Of a stretch of 64,000 nt of DNA, positions 30,732 to 41,124 are shown in pieces (the stretch's first letter is position 1; every line of letters starts with the position of its first letter). Both the position numbers and the translations under genes were made by a program. Source of the DNA: Chitinophagaceae bacterium. Its GTDB lineage: Bacteria > Bacteroidota > Bacteroidia > Chitinophagales > Chitinophagaceae. The stretch covers positions 1 to 64,000 of the forward strand of contig SEAD01000001.1 in the NCBI GenBank assembly GCA_004173355.1, given 5' to 3'. The notes beneath the pieces were generated by a model. It was not told the DNA's origin, did no database searches, and was given only the letters and a program-made list of their open reading frames with translations.

Positions 30732-30777
30732 ATAATTTCTTCCCTAACCGAAACCCGAATTCATTACATTTGCCGCC

Positions 30778-30953
30778 GTTAGCGGTTCCTGCCTGTTTTT
30801 CAGCGCAGGATTAAAAGGGAATCCGGTTTAAACCCGGAGCTGTCCCGCAGCTGTAAAGGATTTCACGTGAGTGAAACGGTTTTATCTCCAGCGCCACTGT
30901 CCACGGACGGGAAGGCATGAAACCGGTCCTGAGCCAGAAGACCTGCCACTGAC
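30778..30953 (+). promoter_or_regulatory. Cobalamin (B12) riboswitch
   Basis: AAAAGGGAATCCGGTTTAAACCCGGAGCTGTCCCGCAGCTGTAA ... GCGCCACTGTCC ... GGGAAGGC ... GAGCCAGAAGACCTGCC, upstream of a TonB-dependent receptor. Confidence 0.95.
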
Positions 30954-30995
30954 ATCATATTTCACCGGCTTTCGTGGAAAAAAGCTGTCGAAAAC

Positions 30996-35035: not shown

Positions 35036-35836
35036 TCAGAATTGGTTCAGGCATGTCCGGGCAGAGCGTCGGAACACACGCGGTGTTTTTCCGCTGAATT
35101 GTTTGAATGAGCGGATAAAATGGGACTGGTCCGCGAAACCGTTTTCATACCCCACATCCGTCAGCTGGCGTCCCGCATCGAGCGTTATCTGCTGCATAGA
35201 AAAACGGAACTGGATGATCCTTGCAAACAGCTTTGGACTGATCCCGATTTCCTGCATAAACTTACGCTCGAAGCTGCGTTCACTCATGAAAAGATTTTCC
35301 CGGAGACGGCTGATCGAAATCAATCCCTTTTCATCGATGATCGAGCGTACCGCAAGTCCGATGCGGCTCGATTCCTTCCGGGTTGAACGACGCATCGCCT
35401 GGCGGATATACCGCGACATCAAACGAAGTTGCCCATCTTCCGGCACCCCTTCAAGCCTCGCCAGCAGACCCGTGTTGCATACATCCGGATCGCCGGTCAG
35501 GTCGGCACAGTCATTATTGAGTGCTCGCGCATTTATATCAAACAGGTAATTGGGAATCTCGGGATATAACTGGAAGATGATCAGCCGGCACTCACCAGTC
35601 ACTACCAGTTCGAGTGGCTCGACCGTCTGCCCGTACACAAATAATTTTGACAGCTTTTTACCACCCTCCCCCAGCGTCATCCTGCTACCGGCATCCTGGT
35701 AGATCACGCCAGGGAAACCGTCGGGGAAGCAGGGCAGTACGGATGTACCTGCACCACCTGTCACATTGTACACCGATACAAGGCTGACAAATCCAACCAG
35801 TGATTTATCGGGAATATGATTGGTGACGGTGATCAT
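35036..35836 (-). CDS. AraC-family transcriptional regulator
   Basis: C-terminal AraC HTH: ISRLRENLFMSERSFERKFMQEIGISPKLFARIIQFRF...DVGYENGFADQSHFIRSFKQFSGKTP. Confidence 0.92.
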   Translation of the reverse strand: MITVTNHIPDKSLVGFVSLVSVYNVTGGAGTSVLPCFPDGFPGVIYQDAGSRMTLGEGGKKLSKLFVYGQTVEPLELVVTGECRLIIFQLYPEIPNYLFDINARALNNDCADLTGDPDVCNTGLLARLEGVPEDGQLRLMSRYIRQAMRRSTRKESSRIGLAVRSIIDEKGLISISRLRENLFMSERSFERKFMQEIGISPKLFARIIQFRFSMQQITLDAGRQLTDVGYENGFADQSHFIRSFKQFSGKTPRVFRRSARTCLNQF

Positions 35837-36237
35837 TTTTTCTTTTTTGTTCCAGGCGCCTCTGACCGGGAGTATTTACCCTGCAACTCTTCCAGCAGTC
35901 CGATCATTTTTTCATTGGAATGATTCAGCTTTTCCAGTTCAGTTATCCGCTGCTCCTTCTGGCTTATCACTGATTGCAGCCGTTTCACCTCCGTATCCAG
36001 CGACTCCACCTGCTCATGGAACATGGACTTCAGCGGCTCCTGCTCAAAGTACGGGAGAAAAAGGTTTACATCGAGGAACTGGGAAAATCGGATGAGTTTG
36101 TCTATGTCAATCGTCTCGCGATGATAAATTTTGTATACACTGGACTCACTGACGTTTATCGCCCCGGCTACAGCTAATGCTTTTATTCCGCGTTTTTTTA
36201 TGATTTCATGTATCAAATTGCCGATATGGATAGACAT
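35833..36237 (-). CDS. XRE-type HTH protein with C-terminal coiled coil
   Basis: AGAINVSESSVYKIYHRETIDIDKLIRFSQFLDVNLF; ATGA overlap with the AraC gene. Confidence 0.8.
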   Translation of the reverse strand: MSIHIGNLIHEIIKKRGIKALAVAGAINVSESSVYKIYHRETIDIDKLIRFSQFLDVNLFLPYFEQEPLKSMFHEQVESLDTEVKRLQSVISQKEQRITELEKLNHSNEKMIGLLEELQGKYSRSEAPGTKKKK

Positions 36238-36291: not shown

Positions 36292-36309
36292 TTATAGTTA
36301 CAGCTATAA
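36292..36309. promoter_or_regulatory. Dyad TTATAG-ttacag-CTATAA between divergent transcripts
   Basis: Perfect 6-bp inverted repeat next to the promoter at 36313. Confidence 0.5.
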
Positions 36310-36312
36310 TAA

Positions 36313-36343
36313 TTTGGTAGTTAACCCAATTTTTCTATCTTTG
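36313..36343 (+). promoter_or_regulatory. Consensus Bacteroidetes promoter with no annotated downstream gene
   Basis: TTTG (36313-36316) N19 TATCTTTG (36336-36343). Confidence 0.65.
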
Positions 36344-36349
36344 ATATGT

Positions 36350-36524
36350 CCCGGTGACAGACCGGGTTTTCTCATGTCACGTACAGTTTGTGGTTAAGGT
36401 TTCTGGTTTAGTATGAGAAACCATTTCGAAGTCTCCGCATCCAGCCGTCCAGGGGATTAAAGCCGGAGTGATTGTAGCCTCTCAGAAATTAAAATGCCGT
36501 CCCACTACCATGGGACGGCATTTT
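36350..36524 (+). ncRNA. Candidate structured small RNA (about 175 nt)
   Basis: Consensus promoter just upstream, hairpins CCCGGT/ACCGGG, GGTTTCT/AGAAACC and CTCCG/CGGAG, terminator at the 3' end, no credible ORF. Confidence 0.5.
36491..36524. terminator. Strong bidirectional terminator
   Basis: AAAATGCCGTCCCA-ctacca-TGGGACGGCATTTT, 14-bp perfect stem. Confidence 0.88.
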
Positions 36525-36543
36525 ATATGGTGAGATTTCTTCC

Positions 36544-38046
36544 TTACAGGTCCCACCAGACCTTCGCTGAAATAACATCATCACTTCCCTGCAAAGAAGC
36601 GTTTTCATTATTGGTCATGCGTTCTGTTTCGGGATACATAAACCGTAAGGGTCTTGATGCAGCAGTTGGTGCCTCGAGTGAATTGGGTATCGCCGGTACA
36701 CCAAGGCGACGGAAATCATTCCATGCTTCGATCCCCGAGATACTGTTTAATGCAAGCCATTTCTGTTCGATGATCCTGGTGATCGGGTCCGCAGCATTGT
36801 CCAGGCTGACCAATGGCTGTGCGGCATAGGTTGCCGATCCGCCTGGTACACCGAGATAACTGAATGATTCCTCGATACCTGATTCAAACAGCGCTTTTGC
36901 GTTACCGCTGATCCATCCGCGTTCAGTCGCTTCCGCCTGTAGAAACAGGCTCTCGAATGACGAGAGCAATATGGATGCCTGCGTAGCCGATTTGAAAATC
37001 CCTGCAGCCTGTCCCCCGTTTTCCGACGGCCCTTTGAATGCAGAAGTGTTCACGCGTGAATATTCCGGTGCCACATCTGGATTCCCAAACAACACACCCC
37101 GGTAATCACCGGCCACGGATACGTACATCCGGTCGATCCGCGGATCGGCGAGCAGCTTATACTGGTCAATAATAAATGAGGTAGGCCGGATGTCCTGGTA
37201 ATTACCCGTCACCACACCCTGCACATTGCGGTAATACGACTCCCAGAACGGATTGAGTTTACCCGATGTATTCAGGTAGCCAGGCTGCACCTGTGCAGTC
37301 TGGCCGGCACCGATAAACCCTGTGCCTTCGGCCTGGATCTTAGCGATCTCGGCATTCACATACGACTGGTCAGCTACTTCACTCTGGCGGATCAGCGCGC
37401 GGAGTTTGACCGTATTCGCAAACCGGTACCAGGCATTGCGGTTACCGGCAAACAATATATCGTCAGTTGTCGGCTCCGTACCCGGTGTACTGTTTTTGAT
37501 ATCACTGATCCCGGCAGTAACAAGGTCCATGGCTTTCTGGTACACTACCCTACCCTCTTCATAACGTGGCGTCGGGAATTGTGTGCCGCGCAATGCATCA
37601 TCAAAAGGTACATTGTTGTAAATATCCACGAGACGGAAGAAATGCCAGCCCTGCATGATCTTCGCGATACCGGCATAAAACAAAGCACCCTCCGACTCCG
37701 CTTCTTCTTTCATGAGCTGGTAGTAAAGCAATGTATTGAAACCATTTTCCCAGACCGGAATGCCATCGCGCTGGTGGCGGATCGCAGGACCGTTGAAGGT
37801 TTTCAGGTCGACGAACATACTGATACCCTCGTTGGTGGTGCCCCAATAACCTCCCCAGAGCGACCCGATCTGGTTCAGCTGCCCCTGTTCCTGGTTCACC
37901 GTGCTGACCAGCACGGCAGGAAGCTTCGCGCGCAACGGTAGTGTTTCCGATGTGGGTGCATTCGGGTTTTCATTTACATCAAGGAATTTGTTGCAGCTGA
38001 TCAGCAACATGGATATAATAGCGGAAAAAAGTATTCTTTTCATCAT
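36544..38046 (-). CDS. SusD/RagB-family nutrient-binding lipoprotein
   Basis: MKRILFSAIISMLLISCNKFLDVNENPNAPT; adjacent to SusC. Confidence 0.95.
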   Translation of the reverse strand: MMKRILFSAIISMLLISCNKFLDVNENPNAPTSETLPLRAKLPAVLVSTVNQEQGQLNQIGSLWGGYWGTTNEGISMFVDLKTFNGPAIRHQRDGIPVWENGFNTLLYYQLMKEEAESEGALFYAGIAKIMQGWHFFRLVDIYNNVPFDDALRGTQFPTPRYEEGRVVYQKAMDLVTAGISDIKNSTPGTEPTTDDILFAGNRNAWYRFANTVKLRALIRQSEVADQSYVNAEIAKIQAEGTGFIGAGQTAQVQPGYLNTSGKLNPFWESYYRNVQGVVTGNYQDIRPTSFIIDQYKLLADPRIDRMYVSVAGDYRGVLFGNPDVAPEYSRVNTSAFKGPSENGGQAAGIFKSATQASILLSSFESLFLQAEATERGWISGNAKALFESGIEESFSYLGVPGGSATYAAQPLVSLDNAADPITRIIEQKWLALNSISGIEAWNDFRRLGVPAIPNSLEAPTAASRPLRFMYPETERMTNNENASLQGSDDVISAKVWWDL

Positions 38047-38061
38047 TGTAAAGTTTAAGGG

Positions 38062-41000
38062 TTAGAAGCTGGCGGTGAGATTAAAGCCAAAACTGCGGTA
38101 AGGTGGTACTTGCCGGAAGCTGAGATAACCATCCGTGTTGTTGTAGAGGTATTCCGGATCGCCGTATTTATTATCCTTGTGGCGGATGATAAACAGGTTG
38201 GTCCCTACAAGTCCTATACTGAGATCCCGCACGATCCGCTGTCCCCCGAGTATGGATTGCGGCAATGCATAGCTGATATTCAGTTCACGCAGTTTCAGGA
38301 AATCCGATGGCGCAGCCGTATTGATCTGTACTTCACCCTGGCGGCTCCAGAACGCGCGGCCACCGGATGATGTCAGCATCGTATTCGCCTGGTATTGCCC
38401 GGGGCCTGTTTCAATCACCGAACCGGGCCATACAAATGGCTGGCGGTCGAAGGCGGCGGTACGTGGATCAGTACCGGCGGCATACATGGCCGGTACGATT
38501 TCCGAGTACAACCAACCACCCATGCGCCAGTCAAACTGTGCACCAACGGTCAGGCCTTTGAAACTGAACTGGGTATTGATGCCCATCTGGTAGGGCGGCA
38601 CCAGTGAGCCAAGGGTAGTGTTTTCCGTGGCAACAACCGGATCACCGGTACTGGCATCCACCACCACATTCCCGTTCGGGTCGCGTTTATAATCACTCAC
38701 GAGCAGCGTCGGGAACTGCTGGCCAATCACGGCATAGGACTGGCGGAAATTGTTGATATTATCAAGACCACCATATAGTTCTTTCACCTGGTTGTCGATG
38801 TAGGTGAAATTGAATCCAAGATTCCAGCGGATATCTCTTGTGCGGATGAGATCCCCGTTGATACCAGCCTCGATGATGCTGTTGGTCAGGCGGCCGGCAT
38901 TTACCCGTGCAGAGTTGTACCCTGTGGCAGCGGAGGCGGTTGCATTGAAGATCTGGCCCTTTGAATCAGAATACACATAGGTACCCTCGATATTCAACCG
39001 GTTATTAAACAGACCCAGCTGGAAACCGGTCTCGACGGAGGTCACGAACTCCGGTTCAATATTGGGGTTGGGGTTAACCAGACCGGGCAGGAAGCCCACC
39101 AGGTTGCCAAATGGAAAGCCGAGTGACTGCGTATAAGCATTCTGCAGCTGGTAAGGTGCGAGGGTTACGTTACCCGTTTTATTCCAGGACCCGAACCATT
39201 TCAGGTAAGAGATCCTGCGGCTGTCTTTCAGTGAAGTAATGGCATCGGAAGCAACGAATGACACACTGACTCCCGGATAAAAATAAGAACGGTTCTCCTG
39301 GCTCAGTACGGATGTCCAGTCATTCCGGCCGGTCAGGGTCAGGAATAAAAAATTATCATAGCCTGCCACAAACTCACCGTACACAGCCGAAGAGCGTTGT
39401 TCGGTAATGGCAACCGATCCGTTGAGTTCGCCCTGGCGGCTGCCGGGGTTGAGCAGGTCCTGGTAGAGGAGGTTGGCTGCACCGATGCTGCTGGTCTTGC
39501 GGTAGTCTGTACGTACGTTCTGGCCAACAAGCAACCGAGTGCTGATTTTATCAAACTGTTTTTCAAAATTCAGGATCAGGTCGCTGTTGAACCGGCGATA
39601 CGCATTGGAACCATCGCTCACACTACCCACCGTGTTCCTGGTACCCGGCGCCTCAAACTTGCGGGTGCTGCTGCGTGATTCATCCGTGAGTGAATACATA
39701 CCCGCACGGTACAGTGCCTTGAACCAGGGGGCGAAACTGTAATCGAGTTCAATTTTCCCGTTCAGCGTCTGCTGTTTGCTTTCATCCCGGATATTATCAA
39801 TCAGGAAATAAGGATTACGCAGCCATGATCCCTGGCTGGTGAAATAGTTCAGCGGATTACCGGGCGACAGGGTATTTTCCCAATCCTTCACCATATCAAA
39901 GTTGAAGTTGGCAGGATAACGATAGGCACCGATCCATGGTCCGTCGGGCGTGGTGTTCTTATCATTAATACTGTAGTTCACATTGTAGGATGCATTCAGT
40001 TTCCCGAATTTCCTCGATCCGTTGAAGCGCAGGTTGGTGCGTTTGTTTACATCATCCGGGATAATCCCCCTGATGTCCACATGCTGCACCGACATGAAAT
40101 AGGTGCTGCGGTCATCACCACCGGAAAAAGAAAGATCATTCTGTATGGTCAGGCCCGTGTTGAACAGATCCAGCCGATTATCTTTTGACGGTACTGCATA
40201 CAGCACTGTTGGTTGTGTACCATCGGGCAATGGCAATCCGAAGTCGCGCGTGCTGCCATCAAACTCCGGCCCCCAGGACTCGTATTGCACAGCATCGTAT
40301 ACACCATTGTTTCCCTGTCCGTATTTTGTCTGTGCCGGTGGAAGCAGGAACACATTGGAGAAAGTGGTTGTGTGTCCGAATGTAACCACACCCTTTCCCT
40401 TCTTCCCTGATTTGGTACTGATCATCAAGGCACCATTCACGCCTTCCGAACCGTAGAGTGCAGCTGCGTTGGCACCCTTCAGGACGGTGATGGATTCGAT
40501 ATCATTCGGATTGAGCCGTGCGATATCCGGTACAGGCACACCATCCACCACGTAGATCGGAGCATTCGGATTACGGCCATCGATACCGGCGGTGCGACTC
40601 AATGAACGGCTGCCTCGCAGGGTAATGTTGACCTGCGGGTCTACCTTGCTGTCGTACATATTGATCCGCAGTCCGGATACTTTTGAGGAAAGCCCGAAAA
40701 TCGGGTTGACCGTTTTACCCTGGTTAAGGTTACGGTTGTCGACCAGTTGTGCACTTGCACCAATCTCGCGTGCAGCACGTTTTACACCGAGTGCACCCGT
40801 TACCACTATTTCGGAGAGATCGGTAACATCGGCTACCAGCTGGATATCAAACAGCGTGGACGACTTGCCAACGGCAACCAGGTCGCCCCTGTAGCCAACA
40901 TTAGAAACTTCTAAGAATTCACTGGCATTCACGTTAATTTCGAAGTCACCGTTTACATTTGTTGTAACGGCCTGCGATTTTCCTTTGACCGCAATTGTAG

Positions 41001-41124
41001 CACCAGCAAGGGGTTTGCCGGATCCGGCATCGGTCACTTTCCCTTTGATGGCGCGTTGCTGGGCTGACGATACCATTACACCGAGCAGGAATACAAGTAC
41101 CAGCAGTTGAACTTTTTTTACCAT
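38062..41124 (-). CDS. SusC/RagA-family TonB-linked outer membrane protein
   Basis: Carboxypeptidase-D-like domain, VSNVGYRG, plug PIYVVDGVPVPDIARLNPNDIESITVLKGANAAALYGSEGVNGALMI. Confidence 0.97.
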   Translation of the reverse strand: MVKKVQLLVLVFLLGVMVSSAQQRAIKGKVTDAGSGKPLAGATIAVKGKSQAVTTNVNGDFEINVNASEFLEVSNVGYRGDLVAVGKSSTLFDIQLVADVTDLSEIVVTGALGVKRAAREIGASAQLVDNRNLNQGKTVNPIFGLSSKVSGLRINMYDSKVDPQVNITLRGSRSLSRTAGIDGRNPNAPIYVVDGVPVPDIARLNPNDIESITVLKGANAAALYGSEGVNGALMISTKSGKKGKGVVTFGHTTTFSNVFLLPPAQTKYGQGNNGVYDAVQYESWGPEFDGSTRDFGLPLPDGTQPTVLYAVPSKDNRLDLFNTGLTIQNDLSFSGGDDRSTYFMSVQHVDIRGIIPDDVNKRTNLRFNGSRKFGKLNASYNVNYSINDKNTTPDGPWIGAYRYPANFNFDMVKDWENTLSPGNPLNYFTSQGSWLRNPYFLIDNIRDESKQQTLNGKIELDYSFAPWFKALYRAGMYSLTDESRSSTRKFEAPGTRNTVGSVSDGSNAYRRFNSDLILNFEKQFDKISTRLLVGQNVRTDYRKTSSIGAANLLYQDLLNPGSRQGELNGSVAITEQRSSAVYGEFVAGYDNFLFLTLTGRNDWTSVLSQENRSYFYPGVSVSFVASDAITSLKDSRRISYLKWFGSWNKTGNVTLAPYQLQNAYTQSLGFPFGNLVGFLPGLVNPNPNIEPEFVTSVETGFQLGLFNNRLNIEGTYVYSDSKGQIFNATASAATGYNSARVNAGRLTNSIIEAGINGDLIRTRDIRWNLGFNFTYIDNQVKELYGGLDNINNFRQSYAVIGQQFPTLLVSDYKRDPNGNVVVDASTGDPVVATENTTLGSLVPPYQMGINTQFSFKGLTVGAQFDWRMGGWLYSEIVPAMYAAGTDPRTAAFDRQPFVWPGSVIETGPGQYQANTMLTSSGGRAFWSRQGEVQINTAAPSDFLKLRELNISYALPQSILGGQRIVRDLSIGLVGTNLFIIRHKDNKYGDPEYLYNNTDGYLSFRQVPPYRSFGFNLTASF

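Follow-up and report, generated by a model that had tools for sequence, protein, structure and literature searches.

A conserved promoter divergent from an XRE-type regulator gene in a Chitinophagaceae genome, its candidate short RNA, and an uncatalogued structured RNA family in related genomes

Comparative analysis of a 64,000-nt stretch of Chitinophagaceae DNA (hereafter the window), belonging to a draft genome of 372 contigs with 99.5% completeness, revealed a promoter that is well supported by sequence conservation and faces rightward, away from the gene of a small XRE (HTH_26) regulator, and opposite this gene a candidate RNA lacking any recognisable relative. All element coordinates of the original prediction, which had proposed a discrete regulated RNA at this site, proved correct on checking against the sequence, and the features are compiled in Table 1. 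Tracing of the promoter in related genomes additionally revealed 66 loci, spread over 44 of 399 genomes, of a structured RNA family that is new and uncatalogued in Rfam; the role of this family is directly testable, and it is more interesting than the RNA of the window itself.

Table 1. Features of the XRE-susD intergenic region and its flanks (window positions)
Feature	Position	Strand	Evidence or remark
XRE (HTH_26) small regulator gene	35833..36237	-	PF13443 HTH_26, E 1.8e-6; divergent partner of the RNA promoter
Dyad TTATAG-ttacag-CTATAA	36292..36309	.	Candidate XRE operator common to both promoters
Promoter TTTG-N19-TATCTTTG	36313..36343	+	10/10 consensus bases kept in register in G031
Putative short noncoding RNA, ~175 nt	36349..36525	+	Promoter and terminator; internal ORFs of 20-27 aa only
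5' hairpin CCCGGT-gacag-ACCGGG	36350..36366	+	-11 kcal/mol; 0/1000 shuffled 22-mers as stable
Two competing 7-8 bp pairings	36368..36422	+	p ~0.01; fold no better than shuffles
Bidirectional terminator, 15-bp stem	36490..36525	.	-24.4 kcal/mol; common to the candidate RNA and the susC-susD operon
susD-like gene	36544..38046	-	PF12771, E 1.6e-55; convergent to the candidate RNA

To the left of the candidate RNA, the minus strand carries the genes of the XRE regulator, an AraC-type regulator and an NmrA-like protein, and to the right stands a susD-susC pair. The Pfam assignments agree with the flanks originally described, a divergent XRE gene (PF13443) and a convergent SusD gene (PF12771). Since susD and susC are read convergently over positions 36544-41124 and no same-strand gene follows downstream, the claim that the element is not an mRNA leader was borne out, and a 5' leader or riboswitch reading was rejected. 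Elsewhere in the window the Rfam matches comprise three tRNAs and a cobalamin riboswitch (RF00174, E 3.8e-25) at positions 30766-30964 of the plus strand, with a 664-aa same-strand ORF located just downstream of it.

The Bacteroidetes promoter consensus consists of TTTG near -33 and TAnnTTTG near -7 (PMC7366714), and the promoter of the window comprises TTTG at 36313-36316 followed, after 19 nt, by TATCTTTG at 36336-36343. The dyad ends 3 bp before the -33 box of this promoter, and on its other side 54 bp separate it from the XRE start codon, which it likewise precedes. Few genomes carry the XRE gene: among 299 family and 399 order genomes a close ortholog was detected in G031 alone (63% protein identity), no ortholog was found in a second species of the window genus, a search of genome contigs gave one weak N-terminal relative, and none appeared in viral contigs. 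The conservation values reported here therefore derive from a comparison of two sequences, the window and G031, which can be aligned without gaps upstream of the XRE start codon, with identities of 62% (0 to -80) and 53% (-80 to -120) that fall to 35, 30 and 26% beyond -120. Between positions -110 and -40 identity reached 60%, compared with 31% in mononucleotide shuffles, none of 20000 being equally high. In G031 both TTTG-N19-TAnnTTTG and TTATAG-N6-CTATAA lie exactly as far from the XRE start codon as they do in the window; the promoter boxes are better kept than their 19-bp spacer, and exact matches to the dyad pattern are confined to this locus in both genomes. The rightward-facing promoter of the original prediction can accordingly be taken as genuine in so far as its boxes are conserved in register, and the dyad is tied to the XRE gene by the same 54-nt spacing; the suggestion that the HTH protein controls the RNA gains from this the position of the dyad and nothing beyond position.

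Conservation between the window and G031 ends sharply at the predicted transcript start, as would be expected for a divergent promoter pair. The presence of promoter and dyad in the same place in G031, together with this boundary, argues that divergent transcription linked to the XRE gene, as predicted from conservation, is probably real. According to an alternative explanation, no discrete RNA exists at all: the conserved block would serve only the XRE gene, the remainder would be spacer plus the susCD terminator, and the promoter match would be coincidental. In its favour, two-box matches do arise by chance (TTTG-N17..22-TAnnTTTG is expected 1.2 times in the 64-kb window, where a modest excess of four was seen, another of them directly upstream of a tRNA gene), and the fold signal of the candidate RNA stems from its terminator and 5' hairpin only. 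However, G031 has both boxes again, equally placed and equally spaced, and retention of all ten consensus bases would have a probability of ~0.006 if each were kept at the 60% background, which makes this explanation improbable.

The candidate RNA as a whole folds better than its shuffles (z -3.9), with z dropping to -0.9 when the terminator is removed and to -0.2 when the 5' hairpin is removed as well; therefore promoter, 5' hairpin and terminator exceed the chance level and the competing-hairpin switch is marginal. In the first of the competing pairings TTTCTCAT (36368-36375) is matched with ATGAGAAA (36413-36420), and in the second GGTTTCT (36398-36404) with AGAAACC (36416-36422); a further stem joins CTCCG (36433-36437) to CGGAG (36464-36468). 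Mutually exclusive hairpins had been put forward as a switch, and the pairings indeed exist (p ~0.01 for two stems of at least 7 bp within 36367-36489), yet without any fold signal above shuffles. The statement that the region holds no credible ORF was confirmed, with ORFs of at most 20-27 aa inside 36349-36490, so that the product of XRE-linked divergent transcription could here only be a short RNA. Two details of the candidate RNA may be recorded separately. A tiny ORF (ATG...TAA, MRNHFEVSASSRPGD) lies at 36413-36460, its translation being without support; and the 5' hairpin followed by TTTTCTC (36350-36370) resembles an intrinsic terminator starting at about +2, in which case many transcripts could end at ~22 nt.

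The terminator at the 3' end is a simple hairpin with a 6-nt loop, its arms AAAATGCCGTCCCA (36491-36504) and TGGGACGGCATTTT (36511-36524) forming 14 bp, or 15 bp with the T36490-A36525 pair. Because it is symmetrical (AAAA...TTTT), lies 20 nt past the susD stop codon and has a counterpart shortly after susD in G038 (SusD protein 55% identical), it is best read from these sequences as a susCD terminator that may also serve the opposite strand. The view of it as the RNA's own terminator is weakened to that extent, the hairpin serving the convergent susD at least equally well.

Searches for the identity of the candidate RNA yielded chance matches only when Rfam was screened at gathering and relaxed thresholds, so that the proposed comparison with known housekeeping RNAs left it without a match. 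DNA searches of phages and of 100 related genomes, a second species of the genus among them, gave no credible match; the best four partial matches (L002, L003, L004 and L009) were dismissed, being located in or beside unrelated coding sequences. The conservation of the RNA body that the original prediction had proposed to look for in relatives was thus not detected in these 100 genomes, and the body likewise has no counterpart in G031 or in the other genomes searched. That the RNA is a known housekeeping or guide RNA, either 6S or a guide of nuclease-dead Cas12f (dCas12f), is suggested by its length and by the dCas12f loci of relatives, which have an HTH-type gene and a structured RNA. Against this stand the lack of an Rfam match and the absence of 6S, dCas12f and any guide-like match elsewhere from the genome, leaving the proposal with hardly any probability. 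In particular, 6S RNA (RF00013), left open originally as a 6S-like identity, was found neither in the window nor in the whole genome, whereas 8 of 14 control genomes gave a match, and the closing stem of 5' and 3' ends is absent, the 5' end folding into its own hairpin; the 6S identity was rejected on these grounds. A dCas12f guide was rejected too, as no dCas12f gene was found in the 99.5% complete genome and the best guide-like match of the RNA elsewhere in it covers 21 nt at 90% (E 1.4). Duplex prediction against 94 start regions of the contig did not favour susC, susD or the XRE gene, and the suggested action on susD is consequently left without a base-pairing signal towards susC or susD.

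Opposite its XRE gene, G031 has a region that folds at z -5.0, and strong folds were also obtained facing several further HTH_26 genes. Against a background of 52 genes preceded by 300 nt or more of ORF-free DNA, itself drawn from loci rich in HTH_26-type genes, HTH_26 loci account for most of the strongest folds. A helix, GAAYCUGASAA / UUSUCAGRGCC, anchors an alignment of the sequences from G279, G253 and G031, and a covariance model built from these three (R1) recovered a held-out copy in G157 (E 5e-8) and detected the 66 loci among the 399 Chitinophagaceae genomes, where they are distributed over 22 genera. In an alignment of 31 loci that was fitted to R1, a model by which about half of the pairs were already fixed and which lacks the tip helix, 96% of cells hold standard pairs versus at most 42% with partners slid, 16 of 25 pairs are changed on both sides, and the covariation score amounts to 0.417 versus 0.166 in shuffles. 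In all 31 loci the tip hairpin has a 3' arm able to pair alternatively with the sequence just downstream (GUAGGUUCCAACCC-like, then U-rich), the matched mean being -25.7 kcal/mol versus -20.9 kcal/mol with exchanged tails (0/300). The family is accordingly predicted to hold two conserved, mutually competing folds, namely a GCCCAAY hairpin and a long terminator-like stem. A search with the family against Rfam (15) gave no match, and a UCUCGC/GCGAGA pseudoknot, the two segments of which are conserved, was rejected for want of covariation support. Family loci include L041:1174-1317 (-), L073:8233-8380 (-), L072:6888-7004 (-), L097:2692-2835 (+) and L118-L147.

The family member of G031 is situated opposite the XRE gene and downstream of the orthologous promoter; a second TAnnTTTG lies nearer to it there, and either box could drive its transcription. 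This shared position opposite an HTH gene and the orthology of the promoter region in G031 would fit a strongly diverged family member in the window. Nevertheless, R1 found no member in the window genome, and with filters off both covariance models remained at noise level on the candidate RNA (best R1 match 4.7 bits, on the wrong strand; best plus-strand R2 match within the RNA 3.2 bits). Neither the core helix nor the long terminator stem is present. Family membership was rejected on the noise-level scores of the two models, and strong divergence from a common origin appears very unlikely. As judged by these comparisons, the RNA of the window occupies the same position as the covarying RNA of G031 without recognisable homology, and the locus would consist of a conserved regulator-promoter half joined to an RNA that is unrelated to the family or unrecognisably diverged from it.

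In most of 30 family loci the upstream divergent gene encodes a small protein of 76-141 aa, and many of those tested match Pfam HTH_3, HTH_19 or HTH_26, several having no Pfam match. The genes downstream of the family RNA vary and include those of TlpA-like proteins followed by SusC, sigma factors, sensor kinases, and an MNEPL-starting protein of ~320 aa (L120:1763-2725, L122, L128, L135 and others). The latter is encoded directly downstream of the RNA; it gave no Pfam match in the three cases tested and seems, from its sequence, to consist of a single domain in several copies. Two family members (R2 E 1.9e-4 in G017 and 0.0028 in G159) are flanked on one side by an HTH-type gene and on the other by a sigma factor gene, with a dCas12f gene next in line (L099:5699-8502 and L113:4991-7817). 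The G017 protein matches PDB 9n9c ('Nuclease-deactivated Cas12f') with E 4e-122, and that of G159 was found by profile search. Systems pairing dCas12f with a sigma factor act in RNA-guided transcription, and in some loci the family RNA could act as a dCas12f guide. It does not appear to be simply such a guide, because G031, G279 and G253 contain the family RNA and no dCas12f match was found in them. A literature search did not find a paper describing the dCas12f-sigma system or the RNA family.

Taken together, the reading that we favour, with somewhat better than even confidence, is that a single regulatory block drives the XRE gene to one side and a short noncoding RNA gene to the other, the RNA being coupled to the XRE protein and acting in trans. 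RNA polymerase carrying the housekeeping sigma factor of Bacteroidetes would start at about 36349 and produce an RNA with a stable hairpin at its extreme 5' end and a weakly structured, ORF-less middle, ending at the terminator that also serves the convergent susC-susD operon to give ~175 nt. The most likely binding site of the XRE protein is the TTATAG-N6-CTATAA dyad, and such binding would couple the synthesis of the protein to that of the RNA. The trans-acting regulatory role is the least certain step, to which we give slightly less than an even chance; it is plausible that the RNA is an orphan sRNA unique to this genome.

The main rival is a relic transcript, in which the promoter is real and its original product, perhaps a family RNA of the G031 type, was lost when susCD came to lie downstream, so that the short RNA would now be meaningless, its transcription simply reaching the susCD terminator, and the block selected mainly for control of the XRE gene. 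Several observations agree with it: conservation ends at the transcript start, the RNA body is unique and weakly structured, the equivalent site in G031 is occupied by a true structured RNA, and susD accounts for the terminator. On the other hand, the RNA-facing promoter boxes are perfectly kept, beyond their spacer, a strong hairpin stands right at +2, and sRNAs confined to one lineage are frequent in Bacteroidetes (in B. thetaiotaomicron 27 of 49; PMC7366714). A relic is considered a serious possibility, though a doubtful one. Somewhat more tentative still is the broader proposal that an HTH gene with a divergent RNA promoter forms a widespread Chitinophagaceae module whose usual RNA is the competing-fold family, the RNA of the window being functional and either replaced or diverged; were this true, the operator-promoter half would be conserved and the RNA half exchangeable. 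The window offers a testable XRE-linked sRNA candidate beside a susCD locus; sRNAs have been little studied in this bacterial family.

Compared with known systems, the candidate shares with 6S RNA (RF00013) a comparable length and its stand-alone nature, and with the R1/R2 family the head-to-head arrangement with a small HTH-type gene, from which it differs in having neither the GAAYCUGASAA/UUSUCAGRGCC helix nor a long terminator stem competing with a GCCCAAY hairpin. The dCas12f-sigma factor loci of G017 and G159 likewise combine an HTH-type gene with a structured RNA, in a genomic setting that includes the dCas12f absent here. A parallel at the level of class, and not of homology, is provided by the 49 high-confidence intergenic sRNAs of B. 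thetaiotaomicron, such as GibS, for which promoter and terminator served as criteria (PMC7366714). The RNA of the window has its own promoter, a 3' intrinsic terminator and no protein-coding capacity, and in common with these sRNAs it is intergenic and ORF-less, with a TTTG/TAnnTTTG housekeeping-sigma promoter and an intrinsic terminator. Unlike them, it is a prediction from sequence, shares its terminator with a convergent gene and stands head-to-head with an XRE gene; like 27 of the 49, it appears to be strain-specific.
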